From Planctomycetota bacterium (lineage in GTDB: Bacteria > Planctomycetota > UBA8742 > UBA2392), in NCBI GenBank assembly GCA_020845475.1, contig JADLFN010000017.1, positions 21,714 through 85,713 of the forward strand: a DNA stretch of 64,000 nucleotides, written 5' to 3'. Position 1 is the first letter of the stretch, and each line of letters opens with the position of its first letter. The translations under genes were made by a program, and so were the position numbers. Under the pieces are notes generated by a model. That model saw nothing but the letters and a program-made list of their open reading frames with translations, had not been told where the DNA came from and did not search any database. This document shows positions 3,581 through 64,000 of this stretch, in pieces.

Positions 3581-6500
3581 TTAGCCGTAATGGCCTGCGG
3601 GTTTTGGTCTGGCGTTTCGGCCGAGGGCCTTGGCGCTTCGCTGGTGGCTTCGATGGCTTCTTCCTTTTCAGCGGCCAGGGCTTCCTGCGCGATTTGTTTG
3701 AGCTTTCTCAGGTCCAGCTTGCCGCTTCCGAGCACGGGCAGGGCTTCCACTTTCACGAACTGTGCGGGCTTGGGGATGAACAGGTTGGGCAAGCCGCGCC
3801 CGGTCATTTTCTCGAGCAACTGCAGCAGGTCTTCGGCGTAGGTGTGGATCACGGCGAGTTTTTCGCCCTTGCGCTCGCAGGGCACGCCGGTGACGGCGAA
3901 CATGCGGTCGGTGCATTCGGCGCATTCGTGCAGGGCGTCTTCAACTTTGCCATGGGGCACCATCTCGCCGCCGATCTTGGAGAAGCGCGACTGGCGGCCC
4001 GTGATGTAAATGAAACCGTCTTCATCCACGCGCGCGATATCGCCGGTGATGTACCAGCCGTCCTTGAACGCCTTTTCCGTCAGCTCGGGCTTGTTCAGGT
4101 AGCTCTTCATCACGTTGGGGCCCTTGACGAGCAACATGCCGCTCTCGCCCGCGGGCAAGTCGGCCATGCTCTCGGGATCGACGGTTTTCACCTTCACGCC
4201 GGGCAGCGGCGGGCCCACGGAGCCGCGTCGTGAGCCCTTCTGGTAGAATCCGGCGGCGCGGAAATCGTGTGTGTTCACGGAGATCACGGGCGCGCATTCC
4301 GTGATGCCGTAGCCCTCGAGCGGGCGGATGCCGAACTCGTGTTCAAAGGCGTCGGCCAGCGCCTGGGGCAGTTTCTCGGCGCCGGTGACGAGCAGGCGCA
4401 GCGACCCGAACTGCGAAGGCATCACGCGCTTCATGTAGATCTGCAAGAACGTGGGCGTGCAGGCGGCGATCGTGCATGCGTACTTTTCAACCATGTAGCC
4501 GACGACCGGCCCATCAAGCGGGTTGGGCACCCACACCATACCGCAGCCGTGGTGCGTGGCCGCCCACAGCAGCAAGTTTCCGAAGGAATGAAAATAGGGC
4601 AGGATGCCGAGCACTTTGTCGCTGGGCATGAATTGCAGCACTTGGCCCGCGGCCTCGACATTGCTCAGCACGTTGTAATGCGAAAGCTGCACGCCCTTGG
4701 GCTCGGCGGTGCTGCCGCTGGAGAAAATGATCGCGGAATCGTCGTCGGGTTTTTCGGTGCGCGAAGCACCGCACAGTTTGCGCAAGAACCAGATTGGAAG
4801 CAGCGCAATCGCCATGGCCGTCAGGCGCTCGCGTGTGCCGATGTGTTTTGCGATTTCCTCCAGGTACAGGATGCGCACGTTGTGCGGCAGCTCGAGTTTG
4901 CCCTTGGCCTCGAACTGGCGGCTGGTCACGACTGTTTTCAGGTCGGCCTGGTTGATCGCGGATTCAAGCCCTCCGCGACCCACTGTGTAATTGAGATTCA
5001 CGGCCACGCGCGCGCTGAGCGCGGCTGCGTAGTTCACCAAAGCACCCGCGCAGCTTGTGGGCAGCAAAATACCCACACGCTCCTGCGATCCCCACAGCGG
5101 CTTGAGCGCGCGCGACAGCGCAATGCCGCCCACAAGCGCCTTGAACCAGGTGATGCGCTCGCGCAGCGGGTCGGCCATGGCGAATGTGAACGGATGGCGG
5201 CGCGCGATGCGGATCAGGGACTCGGCCAGCGGCCGCGATGTGGCCTTGCGCTCGCGCCAGGCCTCTTCGATGAGGTCGTTGACTACACGCCGGATTTCAG
5301 GCGCGGGCGTGGTAGCAGGCAAGGGCGCGCCGAAAAGCAGCGTCACCGGGTAGGGAAACTTGCGCGGCACGCGCGAGGCAAAGCGCCCATCGGAGAGAGA
5401 GAAGATGCTGCCCCACACGCGATCGAGCGCGCAGGGAATCACAGGCACAGTGCGCCCCTTGAGAATGCGCTCAAGGCCGCGCTTGAAGGGCAAGAGCATG
5501 CCGATGCGCGTGATCTGGCCCTCGGCGAAAATGCACACGAGCTCGCCTTTGTCGAGGTATTCACCCGCCGCTTTGAGGGCGCGCATGAGCGTTTTGGGGC
5601 CTTCGGCGGTGGAGATCGGAATCGCGCCGATGATTTTCATGAACGGCTTGAACAGGCGGTTGTTGTAGTAGCTGGCCTCGACGATGAAGCGCACGGGCCG
5701 GTCGATGCACACCATGATGAACAGGCCGTCGAGCAGGCTCAGGTGATTGCACACGAGCAAAGCGCCGCCCTTCTCGGGCACGTTTTCGAGGCCGCCGCGC
5801 TTGATGCGGTAAATCGTGTTCGTGGCAATGACGAGCACCAGTCGCAACAGCGCGTCGGGCAGCAAGTACAAAGCCCAGCTCGTGGCGCATAACGCCAATA
5901 TGCCCGCGCCCACCATGATCCACGCGGGCGAAAGCGTGGCTTGCGCCATGAAATAGCCCGCGACGCTGCCCACGAGCACGCCGGCGAAACTGGCCACGTT
6001 ATCGAGCGCGATAATCGCGCCGCGGCGCTCGGGCGGCGAATACCACTGGAGAATCGTTTTCAGCGGCACCACCAGAATGCCACCGCACACGCCCATCAGC
6101 GCCATGAACGCCAGCGCAACGCCGAGCGATTCCGTCTGGCTGATGCCAAAACAAAGCGCGCTGACGCCAAGGCCAATGGCGCCAAAGGGAATCAGGCCGT
6201 ATTCGACTTTCTTGGCCGACATTTTTCCGGCAAGCACGGCGCCGATGCCAATACCCAGGCCGAGCACGGCCAGCGGCACGCCGGTGAACTGATCCGAAAG
6301 CCGCAGCACATTTTTCGAGTACACGATCATGTTCTGGCCAACAAGGCTGGCCAGCGACCAATACATCGCACCGCCAATCACCGTGAGCCACAAGATGCGC
6401 TCGCCGCGGATCGACTCCCACGCGTTGGCGAGCGAATCAAGCCCGCCATCCACGCGCGCGGCTTTCACTTTCGGCACCAGCAGCGAAGCGCCAAAACCGA

Positions 6501-60769: not shown

Positions 60770-61792
60770 TTAATTCGTTACTGCTATTTCCCAGCTGCCA
60801 TCCTCAAGCTGTCCCAGATCAATTCTCACATCGAGGAATTGTTTGATAACGGCCGCGTTGGTGGCCGTATGGCGCGTGGGTTTCACCGTACGGAATCGCC
60901 CGCCGCCCGCAAGCGCCATGGGCAGCAGGAGTTGATCGGCGAGATACTTTCCTACCGGCGCCGTGGATGCCAGATATTCGCGCGCATCGGTCAGCGCTTC
61001 CGCCGCGAATTCCTCAGGCGTGATGCCGCGCTTGCCGAATGCTGTGAACACCTCGGTAATCTGATCGCTCTCGGCTTCGATGCACACCACGTTGCCGGCG
61101 CTCTCGGCGTTGATGGATTCCGGCTTCACGCTGCCCGCATCGAGGCCCAGTTCCTGGGCAATAATGTCCAGCTCGCGAATCGCAAAACTCATCGAAAGGC
61201 CGCTGACCATGGCGCGCGCGCGCAGGCGCGTGTTTGCGCCGCGTTCCATGAGTTCAAGCGGCGTGAGTGATTCCACGGGCTCCACGGCAACCTGCATGCG
61301 CCCGCCGCCCTTGGGATAGAAGCCGTAGCTCTCAAGCGTGGCCGAAACAACGGGTCCCATGCGTGCGAGCGTGGGCAAAAACGTGAGCGCCAGGAAATCG
61401 TAGGGCGGCGCGAAAGGATTATGCGTGCCGCCTTCCAGGGTGATCTCGGAAGGGCCTGGGGCAAGCATCAGCGCGGGCAGCACGGTTTGCAGCACGAGCG
61501 TGGTCGAGCCCGCCGTGCCCACGGCGTAAAAGAACTTGCCGTTGCCGATCACGCCCGGGGTGAACGTGAGTTCCGTCGAGCCTTCGTGGTCGCCCTCGAC
61601 TTGTGCGGAGCTCACGGCCTTGGCGGCTTTCACGGCCGTGAGATGCTGGGCCATGAGACCGGGGCGCTCGCGCGAGGCGCGGATTTTCGTGATGCGAAAG
61701 GGCGTGCCCGTGACCATCGACAGCGAAAGGGCGGTGCGCAATACCTGCCCGCCGCCCTCGCCTTTGCTGCCGTCGATTTCGAGCATTGCCAT
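60770..61792 (-). CDS. rtcA: RNA 3'-terminal phosphate cyclase RtcA
   Basis: A 340-residue RtcA. N-terminal IDGSKGEGGGQVLRTALSLS is the family signature. The nucleotidyl-accepting His is in TRHTATNAAVIKQF, and DQLLLPMALAGGG is also diagnostic. It converts RNA 3'-phosphate to 2',3'-cyclic phosphate via an AMP intermediate, giving ends that RtcB can join. It begins one base after the rtcB stop, so the two are translated together as in E. coli and Salmonella rtcBA. The stop lies near the opposite end of the operon from the RNA array. Confidence 0.95.
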   Translation of the reverse strand: MAMLEIDGSKGEGGGQVLRTALSLSMVTGTPFRITKIRASRERPGLMAQHLTAVKAAKAVSSAQVEGDHEGSTELTFTPGVIGNGKFFYAVGTAGSTTLVLQTVLPALMLAPGPSEITLEGGTHNPFAPPYDFLALTFLPTLARMGPVVSATLESYGFYPKGGGRMQVAVEPVESLTPLELMERGANTRLRARAMVSGLSMSFAIRELDIIAQELGLDAGSVKPESINAESAGNVVCIEAESDQITEVFTAFGKRGITPEEFAAEALTDAREYLASTAPVGKYLADQLLLPMALAGGGRFRTVKPTRHTATNAAVIKQFLDVRIDLGQLEDGSWEIAVTN

Positions 61793-61793
61793 G

Positions 61794-63014
61794 TCAGCCC
61801 TTGACGCAAACCACCTGGCGCAACGTGTGCACAATGTCCACCAAGTCGCGCTGCGCTTCCATTACTGCGTCAATGGGTTTATACGCGGCGGGCGTTTCGT
61901 CAATAACGTCGGCGTCCTTTCGGCATTCAATCCCCGCCGTGGCCGCTTCGTGATCGGCCACGCTGAAGCGGCGTTTCGCTTCCCCCCGGGACATAGCGCG
62001 GCCCGCGCCGTGCGAGCACGAGTGAAAGCTCTCGGGGTTACCCTTGCCGCGCACGATGTAACTCTTGGCGCCCATGGAGCCGGGAATGATGCCCATGTCG
62101 CCCTCGCCCGCGCGAACGGCGCCTTTGCGGGTCACGAGCACGTTTTCGCCGTAGTGAACCTCGCGCGAGACGTAGTTGTGATGGCAGTTCACGGCCATGC
62201 GGTTGACGGTGAATTGCTTCATGCCCGTGCCGCGAACGGCGCGGATCACGGCGTCCATCATCAGGCTGCGATTGAGCATGGCGTAGTGCTGCGCCCATTC
62301 GACGGCTTCGACGTAATCACTGAAATGCTCGCTGCCTTCTTCAAGGTACGCCAAGTCTTCGTCGGGCAGGTTCTTCACGTGGCCGCGCATATCCTTTTTC
62401 GCGAGCTCGATGAAAAACGTGCCGATGCGGTTGCCCACGCCGCGCGAGCCGGAATGCAGCATAAACCAGACGCATTGATCCTCGTCGAGGCAGACCTCGA
62501 TGAAGTGATTGCCCGTGCCCAATGTGCCAAGGTGCGCGATGGGGCTGGCGTTGCGCGAGAGGTGCGGGAATTTGTCGGTGATTTTTTCGTAAGTCTTCAC
62601 CAGTGCGCCAAAGGCCTCGCGATAGGCGTTGGGTGCGGTCTGCCATGCGCCGCGGTCGTTGCGTCCGCCGCGGTCGGTGCGTCCATGGGGCACGGCTTTC
62701 TCGATGGCGGTGCGGATGGCGTGCAGGTCATCGGGCAGGTCGCTTGCCTTGAGCGAAGTCTGCACGGCGCACATGCCGCAGCCGATATCAACGCCAACGG
62801 CCGCGGGCACAATGGCACCCTTGGTGGGCACGACGGAACCCACGGTCGCACCCAGGCCCCAGTGCGTATCGGGCATGGCGGCGATCCATTTGTAGATGAA
62901 CGGCAGGCGCGCGGTGTTGATGAGCTGCTGCTTGGCCTCGTCCTCGAAATTGACGCCTTTGACCCAGGCTTTGATGGGCACGGCGTCTTTGCTAGTGATG
63001 ACTTCGTAGTTCAT
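61794..63014 (-). CDS. rtcB: RNA ligase RtcB
   Basis: A 406-residue GTP-dependent RNA ligase joining 3'-phosphate or 2',3'-cyclic phosphate to 5'-OH ends. Metal-site residues are in GVDIGCGMCAV, GTGNHFIE and HSGSRGVGNR; HHNYVSREVH and the guanylylated His in FHSCSHGAGR are intact. The start MNYEVITSKDAV matches the family; a longer frame upstream would run into the last structured RNA unit. The Shine-Dalgarno sequence (TTGGAAC) is weak. It begins only 16 bases after that RNA unit, so both are probably on one transcript. Confidence 0.96.
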   Translation of the reverse strand: MNYEVITSKDAVPIKAWVKGVNFEDEAKQQLINTARLPFIYKWIAAMPDTHWGLGATVGSVVPTKGAIVPAAVGVDIGCGMCAVQTSLKASDLPDDLHAIRTAIEKAVPHGRTDRGGRNDRGAWQTAPNAYREAFGALVKTYEKITDKFPHLSRNASPIAHLGTLGTGNHFIEVCLDEDQCVWFMLHSGSRGVGNRIGTFFIELAKKDMRGHVKNLPDEDLAYLEEGSEHFSDYVEAVEWAQHYAMLNRSLMMDAVIRAVRGTGMKQFTVNRMAVNCHHNYVSREVHYGENVLVTRKGAVRAGEGDMGIIPGSMGAKSYIVRGKGNPESFHSCSHGAGRAMSRGEAKRRFSVADHEAATAGIECRKDADVIDETPAAYKPIDAVMEAQRDLVDIVHTLRQVVCVKG

Positions 63015-63030
63015 GTTGTTCCAATATAGG

Positions 63031-63144
63031 TGCGGCGACAAAATTGAAGAGATAATTGCTCTACCCACTGAGCTACGGCCCCGCATCGTGGAGCCGGCGG
63101 GTCTCGAACCCGCAACCGATGTACTCCCTTGCGCATTCGCCGCA
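63031..63144 (-). ncRNA. tRNA-mimicking Y RNA-like unit 4 (next to rtcB)
   Basis: The outer helix is TGCGGCGA (63144-63137) with TCGCCGCA (63038-63031). Inside, GGGAG pairs with CTCTT, followed by a TAC bulge. T-arm GCGGG-TTCGAGA-CCCGC comes first, then acceptor strand CGGCTCC, loop ACGATGC and acceptor strand GGGGCCG, then TAGCTCAGTGGGTAGAGC (D-arm). This is tRNA in circularly permuted order with the acceptor end closed. The flank after the outer 5' strand is ATG and that before the 3' strand is TTTTG, as in the other units. CTCTT could be read as a loop with a Lys-like CTT anticodon, but the stem around it is mostly unpaired. Confidence 0.8.
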
Positions 63145-63152
63145 AAATGTGT

Positions 63153-63276
63153 CGCCACGACAATGGCACGTGCACTGTGCCGTTCCGCCCGGGCGCTCTA
63201 CCGTTGCGCTATGCGGTCATCGGTTACCGCAAAGGGACTCGAACCCCTACCTCCCGTAACGGCTTCATTCGTGGCG
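63153..63276 (-). ncRNA. tRNA-mimicking Y RNA-like unit 3
   Basis: The outer helix is CGCCACGA (63276-63269) with TCGTGGCG (63160-63153). GCCGTT pairs with AACGGC, then CGGG with CCCG in the place of the anticodon stem. T-arm AGGGG-TTCGAGT-CCCTT, acceptor TGCGGT-loop AACCGATG-ACCGCA and D-arm TAGCGCAACGGTAGAGC follow. The anticodon arm runs straight into the terminal stem, so there is no anticodon loop. An extra GGCAC/GTGCC hairpin sits in the 3' strand. Only 8 bases separate it from unit 4. Confidence 0.8.
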
Positions 63277-63324
63277 TTGCAGCGGCAACCTCCCGGGGTT
63301 GCGCCGTCCCGCCGCAAGGCGGGC

Positions 63325-63346
63325 AAAAGGCCGCTGACCGCGGCCT
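63325..63346 (-). terminator. Terminator-like hairpin between RNA pairs 1-2 and 3-4
   Basis: AGGCCGC and GCGGCCT form a 7-bp stem around GGTCA, followed by TTT on the minus strand. A second hairpin, CCCGCC/GGCGGG, follows. It may attenuate transcription between the two Y-RNA pairs or protect RNA ends. Confidence 0.6.
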
Positions 63347-63359
63347 CGCTGCAAATCAG

Positions 63360-63487
63360 TGGAACGACAAAGAGTGCCGAGACATTGCGGCCGCTCTGCC
63401 GCTGAGCTACGGCCGCATCGTGTGGCGGCCGGTGGGATTCGAACCCACGCCCTTCCGTGTAATGTAGTCCCGACGGCATTCGTTCCA
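63360..63487 (-). ncRNA. tRNA-mimicking Y RNA-like unit 2
   Basis: The outer helix is TGGAACGA (63487-63480) with TCGTTCCA (63367-63360). The inner helix is GTCGGGAC with GTCTCGGC (8 bp with G-U pairs), then a 3-base TAC bulge, ATT/AAT and CGG/CCG. T-arm GTGGG-TTCGAAT-CCCAC, acceptor CGGCCGC-loop CACACGAT-GCGGCCG (7 perfect pairs) and D-arm TAGCTCAGCGGCAGAGC follow. The order is again 3' tRNA half before 5' tRNA half. No encoded CCA and no consistent anticodon loop are seen. Confidence 0.82.
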
Positions 63488-63494
63488 ATTCGGA

Positions 63495-63620
63495 CCGCAG
63501 GCGACAAAGGATTACGAGACGTTTTCTGAGCTACTCGCAGTGCGAGGCGGGAGTTGAACCCGCGGCCTCCTGTTCTCACAGGCGCTCTATCCATGTAGTC
63601 CCGCGGGCATCCGCCTGCGG
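63495..63620 (-). ncRNA. tRNA-mimicking Y RNA-like unit 1, permuted through the D-loop
   Basis: The outer helix is CCGCAGGCGG (63620-63611) with TCGCCTGCGG (63504-63495). The inner helix is GCGGGAC with GTCTCGT, followed by TACAT. Then comes GGATAGAGC (the 3' side of a D-arm), an anticodon-position hairpin CCTGT-GAGA-ACAGG with a 4-base GNRA-type loop, and T-arm GCGGG-TTCAACT-CCCGC. The acceptor strands CTCGCA and TGCGAG follow, separated by a single C, then TAGCTCAG (the 5' side of the D-arm). The terminal stem therefore enters at the D-loop, unlike units 2-4. No anticodon is present. Seven bases separate it from unit 2. Confidence 0.78.
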
Positions 63621-63627
63621 CAAATTT

Positions 63628-63718
63628 AGTCGGGGCCGGCTGCGGAATCTCATATTCCGCTAGACGCCAGGTAGGCGTGACCGGTTTTTGGGGGGATGGT
63701 CCGGTCCCGGCCCCAACT
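63628..63718 (-). ncRNA. Cloverleaf-shaped structured element (candidate ncRNA)
   Basis: AGTTGGGGCCGG pairs with CCGGCCCCGACT (12 bp, one G-U) and encloses three hairpins: GACCGG/CCGGTC, ACGCC/GGCGT around TACCT, and GCGGAAT/ATTCCGC around ATGAG. This is a near-perfect four-way junction of 91 bases immediately upstream of unit 1. It has no T-loop or D-loop consensus, so it is not a tRNA. It may be a further small RNA, or a palindromic DNA element. Confidence 0.5.
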
Positions 63719-63725
63719 GTGGCTC

Positions 63726-63924
63726 CGGGAACTGTCCCCGCGCAAAGCGCGAGGGACTGTACCCGTCTTTCGTTTCGCGCTCATGGCGCGGCTAAATGTC
63801 CTTTCAGCACTGTGCACTCAACGTCGGGGACCCAACTTCGCCGAGGCTTCGTTGGGCAGGCAGTCCCCGGGCCGGCGCCGCCTTCGGGCTCGAAGAGGGG
63901 GAACTAGCCCGTACGGCGCCGGCC
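63726..63924. repeat. Cluster of nested palindromes between tRNA-Arg and the Y-RNA array
   Basis: No gene is credible here. Three hairpins are clear: GGCCGGCGCCG/CGGCGCCGGCC (63924-63914 and 63880-63870) with CGGGCT/AGCCCG inside; GGGGAC..CCCAAC/GTTGGG..TCCCC (63871-63825); and the imperfect GGGAACTGTCCCCGCGC / GCGCGAGGGACTGTACCC around AAA (63727-63764). They look like REP-type elements and probably include the tRNA terminator. Confidence 0.55.
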
Positions 63925-63932
63925 ACGCAATC

Positions 63933-64000
63933 TGGAAGGCATGGCAGGATTCGAACCTGCAATCTCCTCGTTCGTAGCGAGGCGGGTTCTCCAGTTTCCC
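63933..64000 (-). tRNA. tRNA-Arg(ACG), 5' end outside window
   Basis: Visible parts are the D-arm (GGGAAACTGGAGAACCC), anticodon arm CCTCG-CTACGAA-CGAGG (anticodon ACG), T-arm GCAGG-TTCGAAT-CCTGC, acceptor 3' strand CATGCCT, discriminator T and encoded CCA ending at 63933. It is in normal tRNA order, in contrast to the units downstream. The first ~9 bases lie beyond the window. Confidence 0.92.

Follow-up and report, generated by a model that had tools for sequence, protein, structure and literature searches.

The window analysed here, a 64,000-nt stretch of a Planctomycetota genome, ends together with its contig (C17) and carries near that end the genes rtcB and rtcA, directly preceded by four tandem tRNA-like units on the minus strand (approximately 63032–63617, Table 1). 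This agrees with a preliminary description of the sequence, which had placed four such units upstream of rtcBA, and all four are matched by the Rfam family YrlA with E-values from 4.8e-17 to 8.7e-4. Exactly 127 bases are common to the end of C17 and that of contig C11 from the same genome. At full length this 127-mer occurs only at these two contig ends, and the join is a single k-mer-sized overlap. A search of the adjacent contig for Ro60/Rsr, proposed in the preliminary description, located the gene on C11. Its product matches PDB entry 2nvo, ‘Ro sixty-related protein’ (Rsr), which we take to be a Deinococcus protein, over residues 18–502 of 517 (phmmer E-value 2e-20), and scores 65.8 bits with vWA_Ro60 and 28.9 bits with TROVE in Pfam.

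Joined in this way, and as far as sequence can demonstrate it, the order is Ro60, two shorter Y-like units, tRNA-Asp, tRNA-Arg, unit 1, units 2–4, rtcB and rtcA, with Ro60, the Y RNAs, rtcB and rtcA all running in one direction (a statement of gene order only, made across the 127-base overlap). The same succession of Ro60, Y RNAs and rtcB is found in two relatives (G009 and G014). The shorter units of C11 share the stem motif of the others and gave no Rfam match at E-values up to 1. Both tRNA genes within the run of Y RNAs have a D-arm of the form TAGGGAA..AACCC, and the tRNA-Arg(ACG)/tRNA-Asp(GTC) pair scores 61.4 and 65.4 bits with the Rfam tRNA model; the tRNA-Arg has U73. Ordinary Asp(GTC) and Arg(ACG) tRNAs are also present elsewhere in the source genome, and an Arg(ACG) tRNA lies downstream of Ro60 at three other loci (L074, L112 and L141). 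The spacer between tRNA-Arg and unit 1 (63620–63930), near the assembly break, contains long GC-rich inverted repeats when inspected by eye.

Table 1. Features of the joined locus; plain positions are those of the window, and L010 and L012 are locus records from the same analysis
Feature	Position	Strand	Evidence or remark
rtcA, RNA 3'-terminal phosphate cyclase	60770..61792	-	PF01137, 268 bits
rtcB, RNA ligase	61794..63014	-	PF01139, 433.6 bits
Unit 4, YrlA design	63029..63143	-	RF02553, 75.9 bits, E 4.8e-17
Unit 3, divergent YrlA design	63154..63275	-	RF02553, 33.2 bits, E 1e-4; strict pattern
Unit 2, YrlA design, complete local D-arm	63358..63486	-	RF02553, 61.0 bits, E 9.5e-13; strict pattern
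Unit 1, predicted D-loop-permuted cloverleaf Y RNA (second design)	63495..63620	-	Rfam YrlA, 30.0 bits, E 8.7e-4
127-base stretch shared with the end of contig C11	63874..64000	no strand	links the window to Ro60
tRNA-Arg(ACG), 3' part	63933..64000	-	ARAGORN; Rfam tRNA (paired scores in the text)
Ro60	L010:2638-4188 without stop (contig C11)		phmmer, Pfam
Two shorter Y-like units	L010:4234-4316 and 4339-4425 (contig C11)		same stem motif
tRNA-Asp(GTC), ahead of tRNA-Arg(ACG)	L010:4429-4504 (contig C11)		ARAGORN, Rfam tRNA
tRNA-Arg(ACG), complete	L010:4506-4582 (contig C11)		ARAGORN, Rfam tRNA
Stand-alone short RtcR-CARF-type ORF, 178 aa	L012:1498-2034		RtcR family, 37 bits

The covariance-model search suggested in the preliminary description was carried out with cmscan on 3,001 bases against 4,227 Rfam families. 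It matched all four units to YrlA (RF02553), but only unit 4 passes the gathering cut-off of 69 bits, units 1, 2 and 3 falling below it. A module composed of T-arm, acceptor hairpin, TA and local D-arm is found in units 2–4, where the Ro60-type stem occupies the position of the anticodon arm, and is absent from unit 1. The common arm order ending in a D-arm, initially attributed to the whole array, thus holds for units 2–4 and fails for unit 1, whose D-arm is split across the module ends. Likewise, the reading as YrlA-type Y RNAs can be kept for units 2–4 (unit 4 alone being over the cut-off), while unit 1, having no local D-arm, was not filed as YrlA and represents a different design. Salmonella YrlA (6CU1) has been reported as a circular permutation of tRNA (PMC11472068), and YrlA has been described with D, T and acceptor arms (PMC8394870). 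The units studied here share with YrlA (RF02553; PDB 6CU1) the combination of a Ro60-type stem with a circularly permuted tRNA module, as well as the site between Ro60 and rtcBA; they differ in unit 1, whose opening lies in the D-loop and not at the anticodon arm and in which all four arms are present.

The outer 7-bp helices are paired at 42 of 42 positions over the four window units and the two C11 units, which had been found by requiring at least 6 of 7 pairs, and 42 is attained by none of the 720 possible re-matchings of the helix arms except the true one. Their sequences differ from unit to unit, in line with the earlier account of perfect or nearly perfect helices. The helix of unit 3 (GCCACGA/TCGTGGC) is missing from the single-strand MFE fold of that unit. 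All six units possess a Y RNA stem that joins the 5' and 3' ends with inward AATG/TTG sides, and the inward motifs previously noted (GATG or AATG, TTG, and GGGASTAC in units 1, 2 and 4) are as described. Acceptor strands pair fully inside their own unit (6/6, 7/7, 6/6 and 7/7) and at no more than 4/6 positions with a neighbour, bearing out the claim that they never pair with the adjacent unit; cross-pairing of 6/7 does occur between the non-neighbouring units 2 and 4.

Unit 1 has its core at 63520–63599, enclosed by the outer helix CAGGCGG/TCGCCTG. The core consists of a D3 strand (GAGC), an anticodon-type hairpin (CCTGT-GAGA-ACAGG), a variable region (AGGCC), a T-arm with a loop of seven bases, an acceptor hairpin (CTCGC-ACT-GCGAG), TA and a D5 strand (GCTC). 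The GCTC that follows the acceptor has no local partner; its partner GAGC sits before the extra hairpin upstream of the T-arm, so that the D stem spans the module ends, with a single base between it and the anticodon-type arm. The MFE fold is a four-way cloverleaf (-52.3 kcal/mol, z -2.19). By this modelled structure, unit 1 is a complete cloverleaf opened in the D-loop, at the point where the Ro60-type stem attaches. This second design is predicted to carry no anticodon, since a loop of four bases closes its anticodon-type arm.

Copies of the second design were sought with a pattern limited to its helices, TTCRA and TA. Applied to 167 sources (3.02 Mb), the pattern returned 11 copies in 10 sources, and a single mononucleotide shuffle of those 3.02 Mb gave none. 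A model built from these 11 copies (R1) scored unit 1, itself one of the training sequences, at 84.3 bits and retrieved 29 copies above 50 bits from 94 sources that included all 80 named Ro60 loci. After 27 sources picked from the top matches had been searched again, 30 copies were kept, the thirtieth (L145, 46.3 bits) being borderline and below the background maximum of 49.2 bits. They are located in the window, in relatives G009, G014 and G028 and at 23 of the 80 named Ro60 loci, a proximity to Ro60 that partly reflects sampling, since the searched sequences (the 149-genome scan described below apart) had been fetched for holding Ro60. Record titles of these loci name Verrucomicrobia, Planctomycetes (Phycisphaerales, Planctomycetaceae, Planctomycetales), Acidobacteria and further genera, which we take to be Alpha- and Betaproteobacteria.

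Pairing in the 30 copies extends to 96.7% of 615 cells, and covariation is present in all four helices, with a score of 0.741 compared with 0.181 in shuffles (none of 500 as high as the observed value) and at most 0.146 in slid versions. The 11 founding copies are 94.1% paired, a value that is partly built in because they were chosen for pairing. The 19 copies outside the training set show 76/76 paired cells in the D, 108/114 in the anticodon-type, 94/95 in the T and 101/106 in the acceptor helix, counts that lean toward the model because these copies were found and aligned with R1. When strands are folded singly, the D stem exceeds a probability of 0.5 in only 17 of 30 copies, compared with 26–28 of 30 for the other helices. 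An outer helix with 7/7 pairs surrounds the module in 16 of 30 copies versus 12% in shuffles, a weak test that is too loose. In 149 related whole genomes, R1 matches above 50 bits were confined to 4, all of them at Ro60 loci, and the 136 genomes lacking a Ro60 hit gave none, with 29 candidates scored per genome under strict filters. Background matches reached up to 49.2 bits and occurred in all 149 genomes; these are presumably tRNAs. Among 74 viral Ro60 loci R1 detected no clear copy, the top match of 45.6 bits being mixed with tRNAs. In the part of the literature that our search covered, which lacked several central papers on Y RNAs of bacteria and on RNA repair, no paper on the second design was found, and a prior description is possible.

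The permuted arm order and the adjoining ligase gene could suggest that the units are circularly permuted tRNA genes, with RtcB joining the ends into functional tRNAs after removal of the outer helix, an alternative already raised in the preliminary description. One relative of unit 1 (L085) can indeed be drawn with a 5-bp stem and a 7-base loop. The loop of unit 1, however, is GAGA, and with the longest stem drawn the anticodon-type loop has four bases in 24 of 30 copies, three in 3, five in 2 and seven in 1; a shorter stem allows a 7-base loop in 4 of 30, and L085 alone combines it with a normal 5-bp stem. Units 2–4 match YrlA and have the Ro60-type stem at the corresponding site, and ordinary tRNAs exist elsewhere in the genome. 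We rejected permuted tRNA genes because joining the ends would yield no normal 7-base anticodon loop, and we regard this reading as having hardly any likelihood. Only slightly less improbable is that unit 1 is a decayed or misaligned YrlA and its cloverleaf an accident of a GC-rich stretch. The best Rfam match of unit 1 is YrlA, at 30.0 bits and with a 24-base insertion, and its fold z-score is modest; two other second-design copies (L121 and L093, 22.9 and 25.2 bits) are also sub-threshold YrlA matches. Against decay stand the recurrence of the design in 30 copies, whose four helices all covary, and the empty shuffle, the GG of the D-loop, which precedes the D3 strand in 30 of 30, and the local YrlA-type D-arm, possible in 0 of 30 second-design copies. 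Such an arm was seen by eye in 11 of 11 classical YrlA sequences among those listed.

More weight, though still well short of making it probable, can be given to a functional alternative, namely that the modules serve less as tethers or adaptors than to inhibit tRNA-cutting nucleases competitively. This is what a Salmonella study suggests for YrlA, which is left uncut by anticodon nuclease (PMC7790460). Nevertheless, a normal anticodon loop to which such a nuclease could bind is missing from unit 1 and from most of its relatives, and in Deinococcus a Y RNA is reported to tether Rsr to PNPase (PMC7790460).

Arrays of this size are not confined to the window. Rfam YrlA matches at E-values up to 0.01 were obtained in 56 of 59 genomes (those of 49 of the 80 named loci plus 10 relatives), in 23 of them over the cut-off, whereas 9 of 14 control genomes gave weak matches and none a match over the cut-off. 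By strict patterns, 18 of the 80 named loci have no classical module, 37 have one, 22 have two and 3 have three. Again by strict patterns, a second-design unit followed by three classical units is common to the present locus, L068 and L071, the latter two having one more weak Rfam match between the second-design and the classical units. Runs of four Rfam YrlA matches occur at L068 and L071, and further runs are present among the matches listed. A four-unit array is therefore not new, and the idea of a unique amplification to four was abandoned, L068 and L071 showing the same second-design-then-three-classical order.

The Salmonella rsr-yrlBA-rtcBA operon is reported to be induced by tRNA fragments via RtcR (PMC7790460). 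It resembles the present locus, as far as described there, in that Ro60 is followed by Y RNAs and these by rtcB and rtcA, and in that a sigma54-like site lies upstream; it differs in that six Y-type units are found here instead of two, with two tRNA genes within the run, and in that no full-length RtcR was found here, in an incomplete assembly. The sigma54-like site, TGGCACGTCGTTCGCA, lies at L010:2060, 578 nt ahead of Ro60, a distance greater than in most named loci. The scan used the generally known sigma54 consensus. Among the 76 named loci with enough upstream DNA, 47 have such a site within 800 nt before Ro60, versus 1 of 76 on the opposite strand. No such site precedes Ro60 in relatives G009 and G014, and none occurs anywhere in the locus at the tRNA-array loci L069, L072, L085 and L095. 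The source assembly, in which full-length RtcR was not found, is 77% complete; the stand-alone RtcR-family ORF of 178 aa leaves no room for an AAA+ part.

Ordinary tRNA genes are gathered at some Ro60 loci. At least three ARAGORN tRNAs are present at 13 of the 80 named loci, and eight of these (L069, L072, L095, L085, L122, L130, L146 and L108) contain 13–31, with many isotypes each and with 190 of 193 tRNAs on the Ro60 strand. The 28 array tRNA matches of Adhaeretor mobilis (L108) have a median of 52.1 bits, versus 67.0 for the 44 elsewhere (Mann-Whitney p 5e-7); in this one genome, a random point has at least three other tRNAs within 10 kb with a probability of 0.3%. Array matches number 13 versus 47 elsewhere in G009 and 28 versus 36 in the L069 genome (manual count), and in the three genomes checked the array tRNAs are additional to 36–47 others. 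Downstream of rtcA in G009 (L056:1033-3708) there are 15 extra ARAGORN tRNAs with an HNH endonuclease-like gene among them (HNH and rtcA recognised by eye).

Identity marks were surveyed in 215 parsed tRNAs of 238 ARAGORN predictions from 15 loci and L010, single non-array tRNAs included. Ala G3:U70 is kept in 8/8, His C73 in 10/10, and the long variable arm in 12/12 Ser and 5/5 Tyr tRNAs. tRNA-Leu has A73 in 22/22; its long variable arm is present in 4 and missing from 18 of 22. U33 is found in 87% of the surveyed tRNAs versus 99% of 88 others, and other 73rd bases include U in 6/25 Arg and A in 4/13 Gly tRNAs. Because many identity marks are kept, the idea of array tRNAs as mere decoys was dropped, with the loss of the Leu arm, the U33 frequency and the atypical 73rd bases as counter-signs. 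The closest published relative of these arrays seen in our literature search is the trn operon of Anabaena PCC 7120, in the account available to us a set of 26 stress-induced spare tRNAs, with rtcB under the same repressor (PMC10272220). Both cases present a second tRNA set connected with RtcB, while the arrays described here lie directly at Ro60 loci; the main text of that paper has no occurrence of ‘ro60’ or ‘y rna’.

Taken as a whole, the locus is best explained, with a probability that we put at roughly 0.72, as holding four Ro60-type Y RNAs of two tRNA-mimic designs that would serve one damage response; at the level of sequence, their anatomy, order and conservation stand demonstrated. 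We suggest that the locus would be switched on by cut tRNAs, as in Salmonella, through an RtcR-type activator, that a long co-transcript would be cut into single Y RNAs, and that Ro60 would bind the stem of each. With the stem replacing the anticodon arm, the YrlA design would leave the tRNA elbow and the acceptor side free. The second design, with its stem leaving from the D-loop and the G18G19/T-loop contact kept, would present the acceptor and anticodon-stem sides and no anticodon. One Ro60 ring could thus confront tRNA-binding partners with two different tRNA faces. According to a review, YrlA acts as a tether for Rsr and PNPase, and DusA and TruB modify it (PMC8394870). Partners here may include PNPase and modification or repair enzymes, presumably different for each design; cut or misfolded tRNAs would be steered to decay or repair, with RtcB and RtcA mending the ends.

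As a tRNA mimic, the YrlA-type Y RNA is known in one design. Conservation of a second design over several phyla would mean that Ro60 needs the tRNA shape itself, in more than one orientation, and since the two designs expose different faces, their partners become directly comparable and the purpose of the tRNA-like part testable. The clustering of tRNA genes at some Ro60 loci also points to a role in tRNA damage. Tentatively, and at less than even odds, Ro60 loci may be viewed as tRNA-emergency islands, composed of tRNA mimics in two permutations (the second a putative new bacterial RNA class) and often of a spare tRNA set, which would sense cut tRNAs, handle the debris and resupply translation.

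tRNA-rich jumbo phages with RtcB have been described, a small subset of them having Ro/TROVE proteins (PMC7824862). Among the predicted viral contigs with Ro60 in our collection (L178–L251, some of them near-duplicates), at least three tRNAs are present at 45 of 74 loci and at least ten at 27 of 74, with up to 44 at a single locus.
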